From: a virus | DNA: 43,012 bases | Direction: 5' to 3' (one strand) | Virus record (IMG/VR): IMGVR_UViG_3300020463_001602 | Coordinates: 1 to 43,012 of that record | In this document: positions 1-43,012 of the stretch, piece after piece | Layout of the letters: each line of letters opens with the position of its first letter | Numbering within the stretch: position 1 is the stretch's first letter | Program-made: the position numbers and the translations under genes | Notes under the pieces: generated by a model | What the model saw: the letters and a program-made list of their open reading frames with translations, nothing else | Database searches by the model: none | Told to the model about the DNA's origin: nothing

Positions 1-56
1 TAGCTGATAATGGTATTCTTAAAAAGAACGTTGCTATGTTTGGTGGTGCTTTAAAC

Positions 57-503
57 TTATTCATTCATAGTCTCCTCAATGAATCGTCCAATTGTTTCTA
101 TATCTTGTGTTGTTAACATACCAGCTTGTGCCCACATTGTAGAACTCATATTACCTACTGTTTCTCTGTTCTTGTAGGCATATAGTTTTTGAGTAATATA
201 TTCAGAGTTTTGTCCAGCAAGTTTTGGAAAGACTGCCATTCCTTGTCCTTCTTGTCCATGGCATGCTGCGCACCCTCCCCATAATCCTCTAATAGCACTA
301 AACTCATCTGCATTTGCTATCTCTCTTTTCTTTTCCATCTGCTCAGCGAGTGTTCCGTTTATTCTTATATACTCTTCATAGCATTCGCCATAACACGTAC
401 TGTTACCACTATATCCAGTATATTCTAACTCCGGATATATCTTAATATAGAAAAAGCCCAGTATCACAAAGGTACCTAAAAGGGCCATTCCTAATTCTCG
501 CAT
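57..503 (-). CDS. Membrane-anchored class I cytochrome c
   Basis: Predicted monoheme c-type cytochrome, an electron carrier on the periplasmic side of the inner membrane. One CxxCH heme motif is visible (Cys78-Ala-Ala-Cys81-His82), followed by a Pro-Lys-Leu-Ala-Gly segment and a C-terminal helix as in the c4/c5/c553 families. Met119 or Met123 is the likely second axial ligand. Residues 5-22 form one hydrophobic helix without an obvious signal-peptidase site, so it is probably a membrane anchor. An extra cysteine pair (Cys37, Cys41) follows the anchor. The start codon overlaps the pseudoazurin stop by one base, so the two are translationally coupled and last in an early operon. Heme attachment would need the host Ccm machinery. 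The redox partner cannot be read from sequence. Confidence 0.88.
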   Translation of the reverse strand: MRELGMALLGTFVILGFFYIKIYPELEYTGYSGNSTCYGECYEEYIRINGTLAEQMEKKREIANADEFSAIRGLWGGCAACHGQEGQGMAVFPKLAGQNSEYITQKLYAYKNRETVGNMSSTMWAQAGMLTTQDIETIGRFIEETMNE

Positions 504-934
504 TATAGCTCGTTTAAGTAATTATCCAATCTATCTTTATTCATTACAAACGCAGATTTTAAACTTGCTGCTTGCTGTTTAATTGTATCTAAGTTAGTTG
601 CATTTCCAACTGTTATAACACCTACCATAGCCATCATTTTATGTGGAGTACATTCATATACATACACTCCTTCAGTATTTAATGTTACTGAAATGTCTCT
701 ACTCATTCCACCTTTCCAAGGTTTAGCACCTACAGGTATTAATGTCGAAGCAGAATTGTGTGCCATGTCTGTTGCTACAAAATTCACAGTATCTCCTACT
801 GCAACTTGTAAGACAGCCGGCTCAAATATCATTACTCCGCCTGGTCCGTTGTTTAACATTTTTACTTCATGCTCTGCCGAAAAGGCCGGAACTGTTAGTA
901 AAAGTAAACCCATTGCTATTAATATATTTTTCAT
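503..934 (-). CDS. Pseudoazurin-like blue copper protein
   Basis: Predicted periplasmic type 1 copper electron carrier of the cupredoxin fold. Residues 1-20 are a classical signal peptide (Lys near the start, Leu-rich core, Ala-Phe-Ser-Ala end). The four copper ligands sit with pseudoazurin spacing: His59, then Cys95, His98 and Met103 (Cys-Thr-Pro-His, with Met eight residues after Cys). The segment with Phe-Glu-Pro-Ala is also typical. A C-terminal helix of about 30 residues follows the core, as in pseudoazurins. In bacteria these proteins pass electrons to nitrite or nitrous oxide reductase, or act with cytochromes c. The gene sits between a glutaredoxin and a cytochrome c gene in one early operon. 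Plastocyanin is the main alternative, but the CTPH loop and C-terminal extension favour pseudoazurin. Confidence 0.9.
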   Translation of the reverse strand: MKNILIAMGLLLLTVPAFSAEHEVKMLNNGPGGVMIFEPAVLQVAVGDTVNFVATDMAHNSASTLIPVGAKPWKGGMSRDISVTLNTEGVYVYECTPHKMMAMVGVITVGNATNLDTIKQQAASLKSAFVMNKDRLDNYLNEL

Positions 935-948
935 CTTTTCTCCTTTAA

Positions 949-1170
949 TTAAAAATCTATTATTTCTTTTAGCTCCATGAAGCCACCGATTGATTCTTCA
1001 TCAATTGTAATTTGAGGGAAAGTTCTTGCTGTTGGAAACTTTCCAAAAAACTCTTCTTGTGTATAATCAACGTCAAGCTGAAGATATTTAAAATCTTTCT
1101 TTTTGACTTCACATAACGATTTTGCCATATTACAATATGCGCAGTTGTCTTTTCCGTATATCGTAATCAT
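949..1170 (-). CDS. Glutaredoxin
   Basis: Small cytoplasmic thiol-disulfide oxidoreductase of 73 residues, slightly shorter than most glutaredoxins. The dithiol site is Cys10-Ala-Tyr-Cys13 after a short beta strand, and a Thr-Phe-Pro-Gln segment supplies the cis-proline of the thioredoxin fold. Glutaredoxins are common in T4-like phages, where they reduce ribonucleotide reductase. Here no reductase gene is in view and the next genes downstream encode periplasmic redox proteins. The protein has no signal peptide, so it should stay in the cytoplasm. Its start codon overlaps the stop of the upstream Lsm-like gene. Confidence 0.88.
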   Translation of the reverse strand: MITIYGKDNCAYCNMAKSLCEVKKKDFKYLQLDVDYTQEEFFGKFPTARTFPQITIDEESIGGFMELKEIIDF

Positions 1171-1457
1171 TATACTATATGTAAACCGCCGCTTTCTGGC
1201 ATTGCGATTCCCGTTGTTGCTTCAATTACTTGTTTCTTCAGTTCTTCTGCTGGTTCAACAATAAACATAACATGTTGTTCACCGATAGTAACTGGCTTTC
1301 TTTTTGCGTAAGGTACGAAAGGAACCATTCCAATTTTACCTTCACCTGCTGGTACTAATAAGATTCCATCTGTTAATGTATAGAAACCCTTATCATATAC
1401 CACTTTAGCTACAACCTCTTCACCGGTTGATAGTCTTACGATTTGTACATCGCTCAT
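1170..1457 (-). CDS. Lsm/Sm-like small phage protein
   Basis: A 95-residue protein, first gene after an early promoter. The N-terminal half (Ile-Val-Arg-Leu-Ser-Thr-Gly-Glu-Glu, then a central Pro-rich strand with Pro-Phe-Val-Pro-Tyr) resembles the Sm-fold small proteins found widely in marine T4-like phages. That assignment rests on pattern recognition only. If correct, it would form a ring and might bind RNA, but no function is proven for the phage members. A good ribosome binding site (aggaga) precedes the ATG. It is cotranscribed with glutaredoxin, pseudoazurin and cytochrome c. Confidence 0.65.
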   Translation of the reverse strand: MSDVQIVRLSTGEEVVAKVVYDKGFYTLTDGILLVPAGEGKIGMVPFVPYAKRKPVTIGEQHVMFIVEPAEELKKQVIEATTGIAMPESGGLHIV

Positions 1458-1481: not shown

Positions 1482-1510
1482 ATTATACCACAGTTTAATA
1501 TAAATGTCAA
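1482..1510 (-). promoter_or_regulatory. Early sigma70-type promoter (Lsm-Grx-pseudoazurin-cytochrome operon)
   Basis: On the minus strand TTGACA (1510-1505) and TATAAT (1487-1482) are separated by exactly 17 bases. Both hexamers are perfect host sigma70 consensus. It lies about 25 bases ahead of the Lsm-like start codon and would drive the four-gene redox operon early in infection. Confidence 0.85.
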
Positions 1511-1514
1511 TAGT

Positions 1515-4067
1515 TTAACTGAAAAAGTCTTCAATCGTATTTACCTTTTCGGCTGACCAACCAACCGCATCTAGGATTGATTGAATAGGATTCAAGAATA
1601 CTTTGTCAAATTGTAACTCATAATCAATGTATTGGTGAAGACCAAGTTGCTTTGGTAATAAACCAGGAACCGATATTACGTTTTCACGAATTGGATTCGG
1701 AACCTTTAAGTATAAAAACTTGACCTTATCTCCACCTTGTATTGTTTCAAACTTCTTATCAAGACCTTTTTCTTTTAGGAAATGATTATACATAATCGCG
1801 CCGCGAACATGCATTGGACAACCTTTTCTGTATAACGAAGACTTGTCTTGATACTTTTTAATATTATCAGTACCTGAAGTCTTTGCTATCGCAACTGGAT
1901 CCAACTTTTTAAATTCTTTCTTGAAATCAGAAATAAAGCTTTGTGTTGTTTGTTCATCGTTATTCATAATAACTTCAAAACATTCTTTAAGTTTAGTACG
2001 ACATATTTCAGGAGTTGAAGATCTTACTGATTCTAATCCTGTGACCGATACTTTAGGTTTGTCGTAATGAACACCTTCAGAGTTCAATGTATTAAGTATG
2101 TATCTTTTCTTAGCTACAAATATTCCACGGTGAGCAATCTTTTCACGTTTCATTACCATTGCATTACGATATGTACCCATATCAGCTGCAAGCTTTTCGT
2201 AACCATCTTCGATGATTTTCTCAATCTTTGTTGAACATACTCTATCAAGAAACTCTTCACCTTTGTCTTTGTCAATATCAGTTGTTCCAAACACTTCAGT
2301 AATTAAAGGACCGAAGTCAACATAGACAGAGTCAGTATCAATATAAATGATATAGTCAACATCGTCAGATCCAAGAATCTTATTTAAATAATCATTGACT
2401 GACTTTTGTGCATAACGAATAGATAACTGACCGCTTGTTGTAATTGCTTCAGCCATTTCATTAATATAATATAAAAAGTATACATTAGCAGTTGCACCAT
2501 ATAAACTGTTCATGGCAATCTTAATTGACATTTGCGAATTGTGGAGTTGATTAATTTCACGCTTAAGTCTTTTGAGTTCAGCAGTATCTTTTTCAACTTC
2601 AAACTGTTGTTCAGCAGCAATCATTTGATTTTTAATAACAGAACGATTACTATAGTATTCATCAATGATCTCAGGAATAATACCTAATTTTTTATTCGAG
2701 AAACAAACACCGTTAGCTGCAACTGAAACACCTTTACGATCATTTTGATATTCGCCTTTAAGTACCATATCTTGAGTTACGTATTCACGATCATCTGGCA
2801 TATATGTTTCAGGCGACATATTGTATTGTAACATTAGGTGAGGATATAGAGAGTTAAGGTCAAAAGATACAACCCAAGGATGCATTCCAACTTTTGGATC
2901 TTTTACATAACCACCTACAAGATCTCCACCTCTCATTCCTGGACCACCTTTAAGTGGAGGAACAATCTTATCTTTAATTAATCTACGATAAATGGTTGCT
3001 TCCCAAATACCAACAGTTCCGAAGGCATCTCTGTAATTAACTCCACCGTCATAAGCAACAGTCATAACCAAAGCAAGCAATCCTGTTTCTTCTTCAAGAC
3101 GAGCAATCAGTTGAGTATCTTTAAGGTTATAGTCCAAATATAATTGTGGATTCTCATCATATAATCCAGTAAGAGAACCGTATTCAGAATAATCAATTTT
3201 CTTTTCACCAAGAACAACATAAGCAATATGATCCAATCTATACGATTCTTGAGGACCGTACTTGTAACCAAATTTCTTGAAGCAATCCATATAGTCAATT
3301 ACAGCAACACCCATAATAGAATATGTTGAGTTGACTTTACCAAATATTTCTCGACTTTGCTTTTTGATTGATTTGTGTGGAGATAAACGCTTAGCGGTTT
3401 CTTCTCCAAGCAAACGAATAATCCTCGTAACAATATACATTATGTCAAAGTACTCAACGTTCCAACCTGTTACAATGTCAGGATAGTCAGTTGTCCATAA
3501 TTTAACAAAGTACTGAAGTAATTGAACTTCAGAATCAAATTTGACATATTGAATCTTGTCTTGAGGAATGTCCGTTACTGTTTGTGTCTTGTCGTAATCT
3601 TTTTGACCAAGAAGATAGTAAATATCATTTCTTGAACTATGATAGGCAATTGATGTAATAGGATTGTCTGCTTCTTCAATATTAGCAAAGCCATCACGAA
3701 TGTCAACCTCAATATCAAACGAAACAATATTTACATGACTTACGTCATACGCAACCTTTTCAGGATATTCTTCTTGTATGAATTGTGTAAGATAATTTGT
3801 TGAACCAAATATCTTCATACCGTGAACACCTTTATATTCTTCAATAAAGTTTTTAGATTCACGCATATCGCCGAACTTGTGTGGAGATAATGGTAGGTTA
3901 CCTTCTGTTAAAGAGCGATAGCCTTCTTCTCCTGATTTCGGTGTATGAACATATAGTGTTGGTTGAAACGGTACACGATACGAGAAACGTTTACCGTTGT
4001 CGTATCCACGATGTAAAATATTATTTCCGTATCTTTCAACAGATGTATAGAATTTAGTCAATGCCAT
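1515..4067 (-). CDS. 43: T4-like DNA polymerase gp43 (family B)
   Basis: Replicative family B DNA polymerase of 850 residues, close to T4 gp43 (898). The N-terminal exonuclease domain has the Asp-Ile-Glu acidic motif near residue 118. The polymerase motifs follow in order: motif A (Asp-x-x-Ser-Leu-Tyr-Pro), motif B (Lys-x-x-x-Asn-Ser-Leu-Tyr-Gly) and motif C (Tyr-x-Asp-Thr-Asp-Ser). It acts with the sliding clamp, gp32 and the gp41 helicase; the clamp and clamp-loader genes are not in this window. It has its own early promoter at 4088-4116. The reading frame is intact, with no intein. Confidence 0.98.
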   Translation of the reverse strand: MALTKFYTSVERYGNNILHRGYDNGKRFSYRVPFQPTLYVHTPKSGEEGYRSLTEGNLPLSPHKFGDMRESKNFIEEYKGVHGMKIFGSTNYLTQFIQEEYPEKVAYDVSHVNIVSFDIEVDIRDGFANIEEADNPITSIAYHSSRNDIYYLLGQKDYDKTQTVTDIPQDKIQYVKFDSEVQLLQYFVKLWTTDYPDIVTGWNVEYFDIMYIVTRIIRLLGEETAKRLSPHKSIKKQSREIFGKVNSTYSIMGVAVIDYMDCFKKFGYKYGPQESYRLDHIAYVVLGEKKIDYSEYGSLTGLYDENPQLYLDYNLKDTQLIARLEEETGLLALVMTVAYDGGVNYRDAFGTVGIWEATIYRRLIKDKIVPPLKGGPGMRGGDLVGGYVKDPKVGMHPWVVSFDLNSLYPHLMLQYNMSPETYMPDDREYVTQDMVLKGEYQNDRKGVSVAANGVCFSNKKLGIIPEIIDEYYSNRSVIKNQMIAAEQQFEVEKDTAELKRLKREINQLHNSQMSIKIAMNSLYGATANVYFLYYINEMAEAITTSGQLSIRYAQKSVNDYLNKILGSDDVDYIIYIDTDSVYVDFGPLITEVFGTTDIDKDKGEEFLDRVCSTKIEKIIEDGYEKLAADMGTYRNAMVMKREKIAHRGIFVAKKRYILNTLNSEGVHYDKPKVSVTGLESVRSSTPEICRTKLKECFEVIMNNDEQTTQSFISDFKKEFKKLDPVAIAKTSGTDNIKKYQDKSSLYRKGCPMHVRGAIMYNHFLKEKGLDKKFETIQGGDKVKFLYLKVPNPIRENVISVPGLLPKQLGLHQYIDYELQFDKVFLNPIQSILDAVGWSAEKVNTIEDFFS

Positions 4068-12209: not shown

Positions 12210-12224
12210 AGATTGGAGTACATC

Positions 12225-12941
12225 ATGTTCAAACCCAAAGCTTTAAACTACGAAATTGATACCGGTGGGCTATCAATGAATCAGGTAGTTGAACTTCACA
12301 ATAGTTTATTCGTTCGCAAAGACTACGATTGGTGGTATGAAATTCTACCAGGAGATACCGTAGTTGATATCGGTGCAGGCATTGGAGCCTTTTCTGCAAA
12401 AGCATTAGATGCAGGTGCAGATAGAGTCTATATGATTGAACCAAACCGCAGATTACTTAAAACAGCAATTAAGAATGTTGCTGATTATATGATGGACGGT
12501 TTAAGTCCAAAAGTAATTCCTATTAATGCTGCTATGGGAAAGACTGATATTGATTTAAGTAATGTTCATAAGTCTTCAATTTATAAAGATCCTGAAGAAG
12601 AACCTAAGTTAATGTCATTAGCAGAATTAATCGAATATCACGATTTACAGACAATTGATTATTTAAGAGTCGATGCTGATGGTTCAGAGTATAATATTCT
12701 TGCTCATGAACATCGAGATTATTTACTGGCTCAAGTTAGATTTATTGCTGTGAAGGTTAATCTTAGTTCGCAATATGGTGGGAATGAAAAGTTTATTGAT
12801 TGGAAACAACAATTCTTAAAGTGTTGTAGAGATCAGAATAGATTATTTTTTCAAGATTCTAAAATGGAAGAAAAACTATTTCATCCAAGATGGTGGGAAC
12901 ATGTTCCTATGAGCTTTATGGTTTATATTAAGAATTGGTAA
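12225..12941 (+). CDS. FkbM-family methyltransferase (late copy)
   Basis: SAM-dependent methyltransferase of 238 residues. The SAM-binding motif is Gly-Asp-Thr-Val-Val-Asp-Ile-Gly-Ala-Gly-Ile-Gly, followed by Ile-Glu-Pro-Asn. FkbM enzymes O-methylate sugars or small molecules. It is a clear paralogue of the minus-strand gene at 13243-13947. Here the later motif is Val-Asp-Ala-Asp-Gly-Ser-Glu-Tyr rather than the usual Ile-Asp-Ile-Glu-Gly. The ATG at 12225 has GGAG seven bases upstream; an in-frame upstream start is less likely. A perfect late promoter precedes it. Confidence 0.85.
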   Translation: MFKPKALNYEIDTGGLSMNQVVELHNSLFVRKDYDWWYEILPGDTVVDIGAGIGAFSAKALDAGADRVYMIEPNRRLLKTAIKNVADYMMDGLSPKVIPINAAMGKTDIDLSNVHKSSIYKDPEEEPKLMSLAELIEYHDLQTIDYLRVDADGSEYNILAHEHRDYLLAQVRFIAVKVNLSSQYGGNEKFIDWKQQFLKCCRDQNRLFFQDSKMEEKLFHPRWWEHVPMSFMVYIKNW

Positions 12942-13161: not shown

Positions 13162-13250
13162 AATCTCGGTGTCCTTATATAATCCCGTATGACAATAAAC
13201 CCATAAGAGAACCATGCGAGGATAAAAGCCCCAAACAATAACTCAATCAT
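13158..13250 (-). CDS. 30-residue membrane peptide
   Basis: Small ORF encoding a hydrophobic N-terminal helix (about residues 3-20) and a short basic tail. It overlaps the stop of the upstream FkbM gene and its own TGA overlaps the next ATG, as expected for a coupled operon member. No clear ribosome binding site is seen, so translation would rely on coupling. Function unknown. Confidence 0.5.
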   Translation of the reverse strand: MIELLFGAFILAWFSYGFIVIRDYIRTPRL

Positions 13251-13947
13251 TTGTAATATACAACATAAACGAACACCAATCGCTGAAATCACCAGCCTTT
13301 AGAAAATCATCGTCATAAGCTTTTTCACGATCTTCATGTTCGAGGAATCTTACTTGGTCCGTATCAAATTTTTGTAATAGTCCATCTCTGAACTTTTGCC
13401 ATTGTCCAACACATCCTTTATATGCGTTCATATGAAACTCTACTGCGATATGTTTTACGTTGTTTCTTAAGTAAGGAAAGTTCATTTCGGTAAAGATTCC
13501 GTATTCACCACCTTCAATATCAATCTTAAGATAATCAATCTCAGGAATATTATAATCTACAACAAGATCCAAGAATGACATCTTTTTGAAATCAGTGTCT
13601 TTAGAGAATACGTTATTAAAATGATTTGCGGTAGAACCTATTGCTGCATGAATTGGCTGAACAGGAATAGTACCTTTATCAATATAAGAATCAGATATAT
13701 TTCTTACAAGCGTCTTAAGATGTTGTCTGCTTGGTTCAACACTGATGATACGACCAGCATCGCGGTCCAAAGCGTGGCAAGTAAAGAACCCAACACAAGC
13801 ACCGAGATCAACCACAGTATCGCCCTTATTAACGTCACGCCACCAAGTATAATCTTTCCTATAAAAGAATTCGTGATATAGTGTTTGAACATCGGTTAGC
13901 TCCAATCCTTCTGTAAGCAGGTTTAAGTTTAAATTTTTATTATCCAT
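13243..13947 (-). CDS. FkbM-family methyltransferase (early copy)
   Basis: SAM-dependent methyltransferase of 234 residues with Gly-Asp-Thr-Val-Val-Asp-Leu-Gly-Ala-Cys-Val-Gly as motif I, Val-Glu-Pro-Ser, and the FkbM block Lys-Ile-Asp-Ile-Glu-Gly-Gly-Glu-Tyr. It shares the same N-terminal layout (Arg-Lys-Asp-Tyr-x-Trp-Trp) with the plus-strand paralogue at 12225-12941. Likely substrate is a sugar of a surface glycan or glycosylated phage component; that is inferred. It belongs to the topoisomerase operon, hence early expression. Confidence 0.87.
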   Translation of the reverse strand: MDNKNLNLNLLTEGLELTDVQTLYHEFFYRKDYTWWRDVNKGDTVVDLGACVGFFTCHALDRDAGRIISVEPSRQHLKTLVRNISDSYIDKGTIPVQPIHAAIGSTANHFNNVFSKDTDFKKMSFLDLVVDYNIPEIDYLKIDIEGGEYGIFTEMNFPYLRNNVKHIAVEFHMNAYKGCVGQWQKFRDGLLQKFDTDQVRFLEHEDREKAYDDDFLKAGDFSDWCSFMLYITND

Positions 13948-25220: not shown

Positions 25221-25535
25221 TTAAAATCCTATTGATTCACCACACCCACACGAGTTGGTTTCTTTTGGATTGATAATTCTAAATGATTCATTCAATCCTT
25301 CTTTAATATAATCTAATGTCGCACCTTCTAAGAAAGGCTTTGACACTTCGTTTACAACTAACTTAAACTTTCCGTAATCTGTTATATTATCATCGTTGCC
25401 GATTACATCAGCATACTCAATAACATACTCATACCCAACACAGCCGCCAGCAGTAACGCCAACCCTAATAAAGCTAGGTTGCGATCCTGACGTTCTTTTA
25501 ATCGCCTGAGATATTGCTGCATCGGTTAGTTCCAT
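25221..25535 (-). CDS. A-type iron-sulfur carrier (IscA/ErpA/HesB-like)
   Basis: A 104-residue protein of the HesB/IscA family, which carries Fe-S clusters or iron to target apoproteins. The three conserved cysteines are Cys32 (Gly-Gly-Cys-Val-Gly-Tyr), Cys96 and Cys98 (Ser-Cys-Gly-Cys-Gly). HesB-like genes are known in marine phages. It is immediately preceded by the 8-cysteine peptide ORF. Its likely clients could include host ferredoxin, which would also feed the heme oxygenase and bilin reductase encoded nearby. Confidence 0.92.
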   Translation of the reverse strand: MELTDAAISQAIKRTSGSQPSFIRVGVTAGGCVGYEYVIEYADVIGNDDNITDYGKFKLVVNEVSKPFLEGATLDYIKEGLNESFRIINPKETNSCGCGESIGF

Positions 25536-26804: not shown

Positions 26805-27425
26805 ATGGCAAACAATCTAAAAGAACTTACACGACAACATCACGATAACGCAGAAAGAACTGAATTCGCAGATATGTTACTAGGCGGAGGAATCGCTCCA
26901 AAGCTTTATCAAGAATACTTACACGCACAGCTTCAAAATTATATGGTATTAGAATCAGCGGTAGAAATACCAATGGAACTTGAACCTATATTTAGATCAA
27001 CTCAAATGGAAGAAGATCTTCAAGAGTTAGAATCATTATATGATTTAGACGAAATAGAAGATAACTTTCAATCAACTATAGAATACAGCAAACATATTGA
27101 AACTCTTCGAGAAAAAGATGATAACGATGCTCTATTAGCGCATTTATATGTTCGTCACTTTGGAGATGCTCACGGTGGACAAATTATCAAAAAGCACGTT
27201 CCTGGAACTGGACTTATGTATGAGTTTGAAAACAGAAGAGAACTAATCATGGGTGTTCGAGAACTGTTACACGATGAAATGGCTGAAGAAGCAAAGATAT
27301 GTTTTGAATATGCAGAAAGACTATTCCACGAATTAATAGATAACTTCCATAACAACTCTGAAGACTATCTTTCAGAAGGAAGCGCATTAGCAAAAACTAT
27401 GAATCCGTGGAAAGATGATGATTGA
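26805..27425 (+). CDS. ho: Heme oxygenase (HO-1 type)
   Basis: Opens heme to biliverdin IX-alpha, CO and iron using a reductant such as ferredoxin. The proximal ligand is His13, in the family pattern His-x-x-Ala-Glu. The distal helix motif is Gly-Asp-Ala-His-Gly-Gly-Gln (120-126), matching the usual GDLSGGQ. Its 206 residues are slightly short. It overlaps the bilin reductase gene by 11 bases, so the product would go straight to the next enzyme. It has a late promoter 41 bases upstream. Viral heme oxygenases are known in cyanophages and in other marine phages. Confidence 0.95.
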   Translation: MANNLKELTRQHHDNAERTEFADMLLGGGIAPKLYQEYLHAQLQNYMVLESAVEIPMELEPIFRSTQMEEDLQELESLYDLDEIEDNFQSTIEYSKHIETLREKDDNDALLAHLYVRHFGDAHGGQIIKKHVPGTGLMYEFENRRELIMGVRELLHDEMAEEAKICFEYAERLFHELIDNFHNNSEDYLSEGSALAKTMNPWKDDD

Positions 27426-42022: not shown

Positions 42023-42180
42023 TGGATCGTATAAATAAAATTATGGAGGAAGGCGGAGCAGGCGATTGGGGAACTGACAAAGCTCGCGCAAAACTTCAAA
42101 ACGATACCCCTAACGTAAAAGTTAAAAGAAAGAATAAATTAAAAACCTTCAAAGAGTTTAAGGACCAAAAAAACAAATGA
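42022..42180 (+). CDS. Small basic protein (unknown)
   Basis: A 52-residue basic protein with Gly-Gly-Ala-Gly-Asp-Trp-Gly-Thr-Asp-Lys, a layout I recall from marine T4-like phages. Its start region contains TATAAATA, so the true start could be the later ATG at 42043. It overlaps the next gene's start by four bases. No function known. Confidence 0.6.
   Translation: MDRINKIMEEGGAGDWGTDKARAKLQNDTPNVKVKRKNKLKTFKEFKDQKNK
42030..42037 (+). promoter_or_regulatory. Possible late promoter (TATAAATA)
   Basis: Perfect TATAAATA on the plus strand, but within the start of the 52-residue ORF. It could serve dihydroorotate dehydrogenase (140 bases downstream) or be chance. The spacing is unlike the other late promoters. 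Confidence 0.4.
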
Positions 42181-43012
42181 AAAATTTTATAGTCGGCATA
42201 CGAAATAAAATTATGTGGCTTGGATTTAGAGCCATTAGACCATTAATATTTTTAATGGAACCAGAACAAGCACACTATTCGCTAAAAAGAATGGGTGTGT
42301 TATTAGGTAGCAATCCGGTTACAAGATGGTTAACCAGCCTACTTATGGATTATAACCACAAAAGTCTAGCAATCACAGTAGATGGTATTGACTATAGAAA
42401 CCCTGTAGGACTATCGGCTGGTTTCGATAAGGACGGAGAACTAACAAAAATATATCCGTCAATTGGATTTGGACTTGCTGAACTAGGATCCTTCACAGGC
42501 GAAATTTGTCCAGGTAATCCTGGTAAAAGATTATTTAGAATGATTAAATCAAAAGCAATCGTTGTATGGTATGGACTTAACAACGAAGGCTCAGAAACAA
42601 TATCGAAAAGATTAGCCGGAGAAGACTTTGGCAGATTAAGAGTAGGTATCAATGCGGCAAACTCTAACTTAACACCTGAGTTTGACCTAGAGATGTCTAT
42701 TAAAGATTACTTGAAAACAATGAAACTGTTTAAAGATATTGGTGACTATTATGATGTAAACATCAGTTGTCCTAATACACAAGACGGTGAACCATTTGTA
42801 GATAAGAAAAACTTAGACGCACTTTTAACAAGGATTAATAAAGAAATTAGACCTATAAGCGACAAGCCTATATATGTTAAATTAGCGGCTGACATGACAT
42901 TAGACGAAATAAATATAATTGTAGATGGTTGTATGGAGCATGGCATGGACGGTGTAGTATGTACTAACCTTGCTAAACCTCAACACAATACAGAACATAG
43001 ACCAGAAGAATA
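42177..43012 (+). CDS. pyrD: Dihydroorotate dehydrogenase, class 2-like (cut by window end)
   Basis: Catalyses dihydroorotate to orotate in pyrimidine synthesis. The first 278 residues are visible; the gene runs off the end. The N-terminal segment with Glu-Pro-Glu-Gln-Ala-His matches the membrane-binding helix of class 2 (quinone-linked) enzymes. FMN-binding motifs follow: Asn-Pro-Val-Gly-Leu-Ser-Ala-Gly-Phe-Asp-Lys-Asp-Gly, Gly-Leu-Asn-Asn-Glu-Gly, and Asn195-Ile-Ser-Cys198-Pro-Asn-Thr. In class 2 enzymes residue 198 is the catalytic Ser; here it is Cys, as in class 1. It overlaps the previous ORF by four bases. Confidence 0.9.
   Translation, partial: MKNFIVGIRNKIMWLGFRAIRPLIFLMEPEQAHYSLKRMGVLLGSNPVTRWLTSLLMDYNHKSLAITVDGIDYRNPVGLSAGFDKDGELTKIYPSIGFGLAELGSFTGEICPGNPGKRLFRMIKSKAIVVWYGLNNEGSETISKRLAGEDFGRLRVGINAANSNLTPEFDLEMSIKDYLKTMKLFKDIGDYYDVNISCPNTQDGEPFVDKKNLDALLTRINKEIRPISDKPIYVKLAADMTLDEINIIVDGCMEHGMDGVVCTNLAKPQHNTEHRPEE

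Follow-up and report, generated by a model that had tools for sequence, protein, structure and literature searches.

Adjacent pseudoazurin and cytochrome c genes in a T4-like marine phage: a probable auxiliary respiratory module

At the left end of the window (the whole stretch of DNA analysed here, a full IMG/VR entry of 43,012 bases, linear, a fragment), a pseudoazurin gene and a gene for a membrane-anchored cytochrome c lie side by side. Both belong to a genuine phage genome and are kept across related phages. We propose that they serve this T4-like marine phage as an auxiliary respiratory module, in which the two proteins would act as carriers from the bc1 complex to the oxidase in aerobic respiration. 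We estimate the probability of this reading at about 0.6. The carriers are placed between bc1 and a terminal oxidase because of their families and their neighbouring genes. The main features of the window are the following.

1..64, minus strand: initial 21 codons of a DoxX-like membrane protein, truncated at the contig end and overlapping the end of the cytochrome c gene
57..503, minus strand: membrane-anchored mono-heme cytochrome c, 148 aa, with a CxGEC motif (PF00034, CAACH, distal Met123)
503..934, minus strand: pseudoazurin, 143 aa, with a signal peptide (TIGR02375, PF00127, copper ligands, fold)
949..1170, minus strand: glutaredoxin (PF00462, 37.5 bits)
1170..1457, minus strand: phrog_527 protein, the first gene 3' of the promoter
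1482..1510, minus strand: perfect sigma-70/early-type promoter sequence, TTGACA-17-TATAAT with TG before the -10, ending 25 nt before the phrog_527 gene
1515..4067, minus strand: T4-type DNA polymerase gp43 (nearest record in the gp43 search: Phage C48C1, Kyanoviridae, about 45% identical)
26805..27425, plus strand: heme oxygenase (PF01126, 71.6 bits), possibly a related iron/heme function
42177..43010, plus strand: quinone-dependent dihydroorotate dehydrogenase PyrD, truncated at the contig end, a possible functional partner

Judged by its gene content, the contig is that of a T4-like phage. Open reading frames for gp43, gp46, gp47, gp55, UvsW, UvsY, gp52, gp39, gp32, UvsX and gp41 were identified from sequence. 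No photosynthesis genes were seen within the window, and it contains neither an alternative oxidase nor any oxidase subunit. The hosts of this marine virus are probably non-photosynthetic bacteria. The location of both carrier genes at the contig end could mean that this end is bacterial DNA and that the contig is chimeric. However, the identical gene order occurs in independent viral contigs, a phage glutaredoxin gene and gp43 adjoin the pair, and the bacterial homologues are unlinked. On the other side, the left-edge translation MNKFKAPPNIATFFLRIPLSA matches MIPKPPANIATFFLRIPLSA of the phage contig L087 (L087:7345-7794), which is the gene following cytC there. This relative passes the DoxX model PF07681 narrowly (24.4 bits against 23.6), and the window holds only 21 codons of the gene. 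In view of the independent contigs and of the phage genes flanking the pair on either side, we rejected the chimera, whose probability is practically nil. Thus, the viral context assumed in the sequence-only reading of this DNA was borne out.

The pseudoazurin exceeds the cut-off of the equivalog model TIGR02375 over residues 26-142 (126.6 bits against 109.85) and matches PF00127 with 53.2 bits. It does not reach the plastocyanin equivalog cut-off (40.3 against 87.85 bits) or that of the amicyanin model. Eight viral pseudoazurin copies all have the type 1 copper ligands H59, C95, H98 and M103. By eye, the signal peptide ends between FSA and EHEV. The model of the protein has a cupredoxin fold with C-terminal helices at moderate confidence (pLDDT 73). 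Its PDB matches, both by sequence and by fold, are pseudoazurins, with TM scores of at most 0.83 by target length. Among the phage homologues in INPHARED, only plastocyanins were found.

The cytochrome c matches PF00034 with 32.7 bits at a gathering threshold of 21.3. Its heme motif CAACH occupies residues 78-82. The distal methionine is M123, which stands before a tryptophan and, unlike M119, is kept in divergent viral and bacterial copies. Thus, the copper and heme ligands of both proteins are intact, as had been stated from the sequence. An N-terminal helix (residues 2-26) is present in the model at moderate confidence (pLDDT 72), and the CxGxC motif ahead of the heme domain is invariant in 20 aligned viral cytochrome copies. 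No specific NCBIfam equivalog scored above its cut-off; the scores were 18.3 against 179.95 bits for CcoP, 19.2 against 61 for SoxX and 20 against 125 for cytochrome c550. The nearest solved relatives are of the c554, c4 and c552 types, including the c4 of the bc1-cbb3 supercomplex, to which both the E-values and the fold matches are weak. Among the known phages in INPHARED, no homologue of the cytochrome was found.

Past gp43, a run of five minus-strand genes extends to the left end: phrog_527, glutaredoxin, pseudoazurin, cytochrome c and the start of the DoxX-like gene. TAATG stop/start overlaps are present at the phrog_527/glutaredoxin and pseudoazurin/cytochrome junctions (a one-base overlap for the latter), and the pseudoazurin gene has its own AAAGGAG ribosome site. 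The phrog_527 gene follows gp43 in L397 and L406 as well, and glutaredoxin also precedes pseudoazurin in L002, L210, L211 and L214. Perfect TTGACA-N16/17-TATAAT sites occur 13 times in the window, with about 0.07 expected, and most of them stand just 5' of phage genes (gp43, gp55, gp39, uvsY, gp32 and others). By its sequence, the promoter at 1510-1482 supports the assignment to the early class. In the relatives checked, a perfect promoter directly upstream of the pseudoazurin genes was not found. An early operon of two genes had been proposed before. The coupled pair and the early-type promoter sequence stand, but the unit is larger, with phrog_527 and glutaredoxin upstream and the truncated DoxX-like gene downstream.

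The order glutaredoxin-pseudoazurin-cytochrome c, followed by a second glutaredoxin of the monothiol type (Grx4), recurs in independent contigs (L002, L005/L210 and L211). The cytochrome c family is present in at least 270 IMG/VR contigs. Those inspected show two main settings of the gene, uvsW-cytC-gp55 and nrdA-nrdB-cytC-glutaredoxin. Pseudoazurin was found in ten viral contigs, and a 33% relative lies near a DoxX-like gene in L403. In the 250-kb contig L212, the order is nrdA, nrdB, cytC, pseudoazurin, a small membrane protein, ferredoxin and an alternative oxidase (PF01786, 228 bits). Another repeated neighbourhood, nrdAB-cytC-grx-AOX, is found in differently organised phages. At least 82 viral contigs (L006, L012, L021, L091, L255-L334), some longer than 200 kb, encode relatives of the alternative oxidase (PF01786), and in several of them cytochrome c and nrdAB adjoin it. 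The cytochrome c gene is present in 12 of 85 alternative-oxidase loci, some of these loci being repeats of one contig. DoxX-like relatives were found in 45 viral contigs (listed as L042, L087 and L363-L407); where enough upstream sequence was available, cytochrome c stands directly before the DoxX-like gene in 12 of 38 loci. A PyrD similar to the one in the window is encoded in 16 viral contigs, and in L213 the quinone-linked PyrD gene and the beginning of the pseudoazurin gene overlap. Many viral contigs carry pseudoazurin, cytochrome or PyrD each without the others, and fragments hide partners. Small one-helix membrane proteins are encoded right after pseudoazurin at L212:10396-10587 and L213:10442-10726; for the L213 protein, a match to the Ctr copper transporter stays below the threshold (17.4 against 25.3 bits).

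Purifying selection acts on both phage genes: wherever dS can be measured, dN/dS mostly lies at about 0.15-0.25. In the trees, the phage cytochromes form one clade (support 100/99, stem 0.72), and so do the phage pseudoazurins (96/94). The sisters differ between the trees: the pseudoazurin of the window groups with that of L002 and the cytochrome with that of L087. Thus, the histories of the two genes are in part separate, which suggests that their pairing is favoured and not merely inherited.

In the order to which G001 belongs (Pseudomonadales, Gammaproteobacteria), 27 of 391 genomes encode a cellular relative that matches the cytochrome over its full length and has a CxGEC-type motif. In a phylum draw of 398 genomes, a good match to the cytochrome that extended past the heme domain was seen only in G001 itself. 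Among cellular pseudoazurins, those of G836, G806 and G753 scored highest, and all three genomes carry the cytochrome too; scores were lower in the phylum-wide draw, the comparison being one of chosen or drawn genomes only. It turned out that the two genes are unlinked in all three genomes carrying both: they lie about 89 kb apart on one contig in G753 and on different contigs in G836 and G806. Thus, a bacterial operon with conserved synteny, which the earlier reading had raised as a possibility, was rejected. Across 22 bacterial cytochrome loci, no general conserved neighbour was found that could serve as a clue to the partner. In two genomes, but not elsewhere, the cytochrome adjoins a GMC oxidoreductase and its small subunit. 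The gammaproteobacterial ancestry of the genes does not prove the host. PyrD was also tried as a guide to the host. Its best bacterial match is only 47% and comes from a genome of 1.1 Mb in the same class, where it sits on a contig of 3.3 kb. Since relatives of this genome lack the cytochrome, no host was called. Two small gammaproteobacterial genomes (L124:1261-1872 and L225:1219-1815) encode a pseudoazurin with an extra N-terminal stretch (for example, MRERLKPAGTLV) that recalls cytochrome c5 N-termini, without the heme motif. Five apparent cellular matches in the genome collection (L089, L090, L091, L092 and L093) were rejected. They are T4-like phage contigs binned into unrelated metagenome-assembled genomes named Synechococcus, Sphingobacteriales, Planctomycetaceae and Verrucomicrobiales.

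The genes found beside the carriers in related phages, namely those for alternative oxidase, ferredoxin, quinone-linked PyrD, the DoxX-like protein and ribonucleotide reductase with glutaredoxin, point to aerobic respiration and nucleotide synthesis. We infer the following course of events. Host RNA polymerase would read the consensus promoter early in infection and produce a single transcript for the phrog_527 protein, glutaredoxin, pseudoazurin, cytochrome c and the DoxX-like protein. The pseudoazurin would be exported, loaded with copper and mobile in the periplasm. The cytochrome c would receive its heme from the host maturation system and remain bound to the membrane. Both carriers, presumably redox-active, would pass electrons from the host bc1 complex (from quinol) to the host cytochrome oxidase. 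This would keep the quinone pool oxidised and ATP production running past the shut-off of host genes. Phage nucleotide synthesis by quinone-linked PyrD and ribonucleotide reductase would add to the load, and in related phages the alternative oxidase may be a second outlet. A broader and more tentative idea is that the T4-like phages infecting marine heterotrophs include a large group with a modular respiratory island of quinone-linked PyrD, alternative oxidase, DoxX-like protein, membrane cytochrome c, pseudoazurin and ferredoxin. Such an island could seize both outlets of the quinone pool and tie phage nucleotide synthesis to oxygen consumption. We consider it possible, with the odds somewhat against it.

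The sequence-only reading had pointed to a respiratory or denitrifying chain. The respiratory part is supported, the proteins being probable periplasmic carriers of respiration and not of photosynthesis; the denitrifying part finds no support in the neighbouring genes seen. Feeding of a host denitrification enzyme (NirK, NirS or NosZ) would have a parallel in Paracoccus. The pseudoazurin gene of Paracoccus denitrificans is clustered with nosZ and co-regulated with denitrification (PMC9409073), and the available text of PMC8115048 describes a viral contig with nirK and norB from oxygen-depleted water. However, the neighbours here include an oxygen-using alternative oxidase, PyrD, DoxX-like and ribonucleotide reductase genes, and a non-exhaustive scan saw no Nir, Nor or Nos genes beside the inspected viral copies. 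We regard this role as very improbable. It is also unlikely that the carriers supply peroxide defence or thiol/redox balance, through a cytochrome c peroxidase or a glutaredoxin circuit, and do not serve energy. Glutaredoxin genes do flank the carriers in several phages, and L087 encodes an AhpC/TSA peroxiredoxin. Nevertheless, glutaredoxins are cytoplasmic and the carriers periplasmic, no protein resembling a CxxCH cytochrome c peroxidase was seen in the loci, and glutaredoxin also adjoins nrdAB, where nucleotide reduction accounts for it.

A small but appreciable chance is left to a role of the module chiefly in quinone-linked biosynthesis. Here the carriers would be an electron sink for the phage PyrD and for a DoxX-like partner; pyrimidines would be the product and ATP a side effect. 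The presence of PyrD in the window and in 16 viral contigs, its overlap with the pseudoazurin start in L213 and the position of cytC after nrdAB in many phages fit this role. However, the carriers are out of view in 15 of 17 PyrD loci, which are fragments, and the host bc1 complex and oxidase may already suffice for PyrD. Transfer of electrons from bc1 to the oxidase in aerobic respiration is the reading we prefer.

T4-like cyanomyoviruses carry plastocyanin (PetE, phrog_515), PTOX and ferredoxin (PetF), which are thought to keep electrons flowing during infection (PMC3037559, PMC5082946). Our set resembles theirs in that T4-like phages again carry a cupredoxin, a di-iron quinol oxidase and a ferredoxin. 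In contrast to PetE, the cupredoxin here is a pseudoazurin and shares only about 35% identity with cyanophage plastocyanin. It is accompanied by genes for cytochrome c and a DoxX-like protein, to which relatives add alternative oxidase and PyrD. By analogy, we may speak of a respiratory instead of a photosynthetic set of phage electron-transport genes. With the bacterial pseudoazurins of Paracoccus, Alcaligenes, Sinorhizobium and Hyphomicrobium, the phage protein shares the sequence family, the copper ligands and the fold. It differs from them in being phage-encoded and adjoining cytochrome c and glutaredoxin, with no denitrification genes seen nearby. The stand-alone membrane cytochrome c of Pseudomonadales (CxGECY) is homologous to the phage protein over the full length, with the N-terminal anchor, CxGEC, CxxCH and the distal Met, whereas the phage copies form one long-stemmed clade and lie in phage gene clusters.

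Viral cbb3 oxidase reads are described for marine viral sequence in the available text of PMC3474794. Like viral nirK/norB, they are respiratory genes of marine viruses for which heterotrophic hosts are suggested; they are other genes than ours, and the available text of the two papers mentions neither pseudoazurin nor the present cytochrome. The earlier statement that no described phage with this pair is known agrees with our search of the open literature, which yielded no report of phage pseudoazurin (subscription journals and preprints lay outside its scope). There, "pseudoazurin" and "phage" occur together only in bacterial papers, judged by title and abstract, and "viral cytochrome C" means an oxidase. 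Cyanophages are well-documented examples of phages that rewire electron transport, there in photosynthesis; for phages of heterotrophs, the evidence we found consists of sparse reads and single contigs. Our data suggest, by analogy, that related ocean viruses may keep the oxygen respiration of the infected cell running, as cyanobacterial viruses prop up photosynthesis. With conserved, selected and early-promoted carriers in hundreds of ocean viral contigs, viral control of heterotroph oxygen respiration becomes directly testable. Models of how carbon and oxygen turn over in the ocean lack such a term.

In addition to heme oxygenase, the window encodes an Fe-S assembly protein (PF01521) at 25221-25535, and the phage may manage heme and iron too. 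Late-type sites TATAAATA precede heme oxygenase, fkbM1 and other genes of the window. A pair of FkbM-type methyltransferase genes (12213-12941 and 13243-13947) lies on opposite strands, on either side of a small gene.
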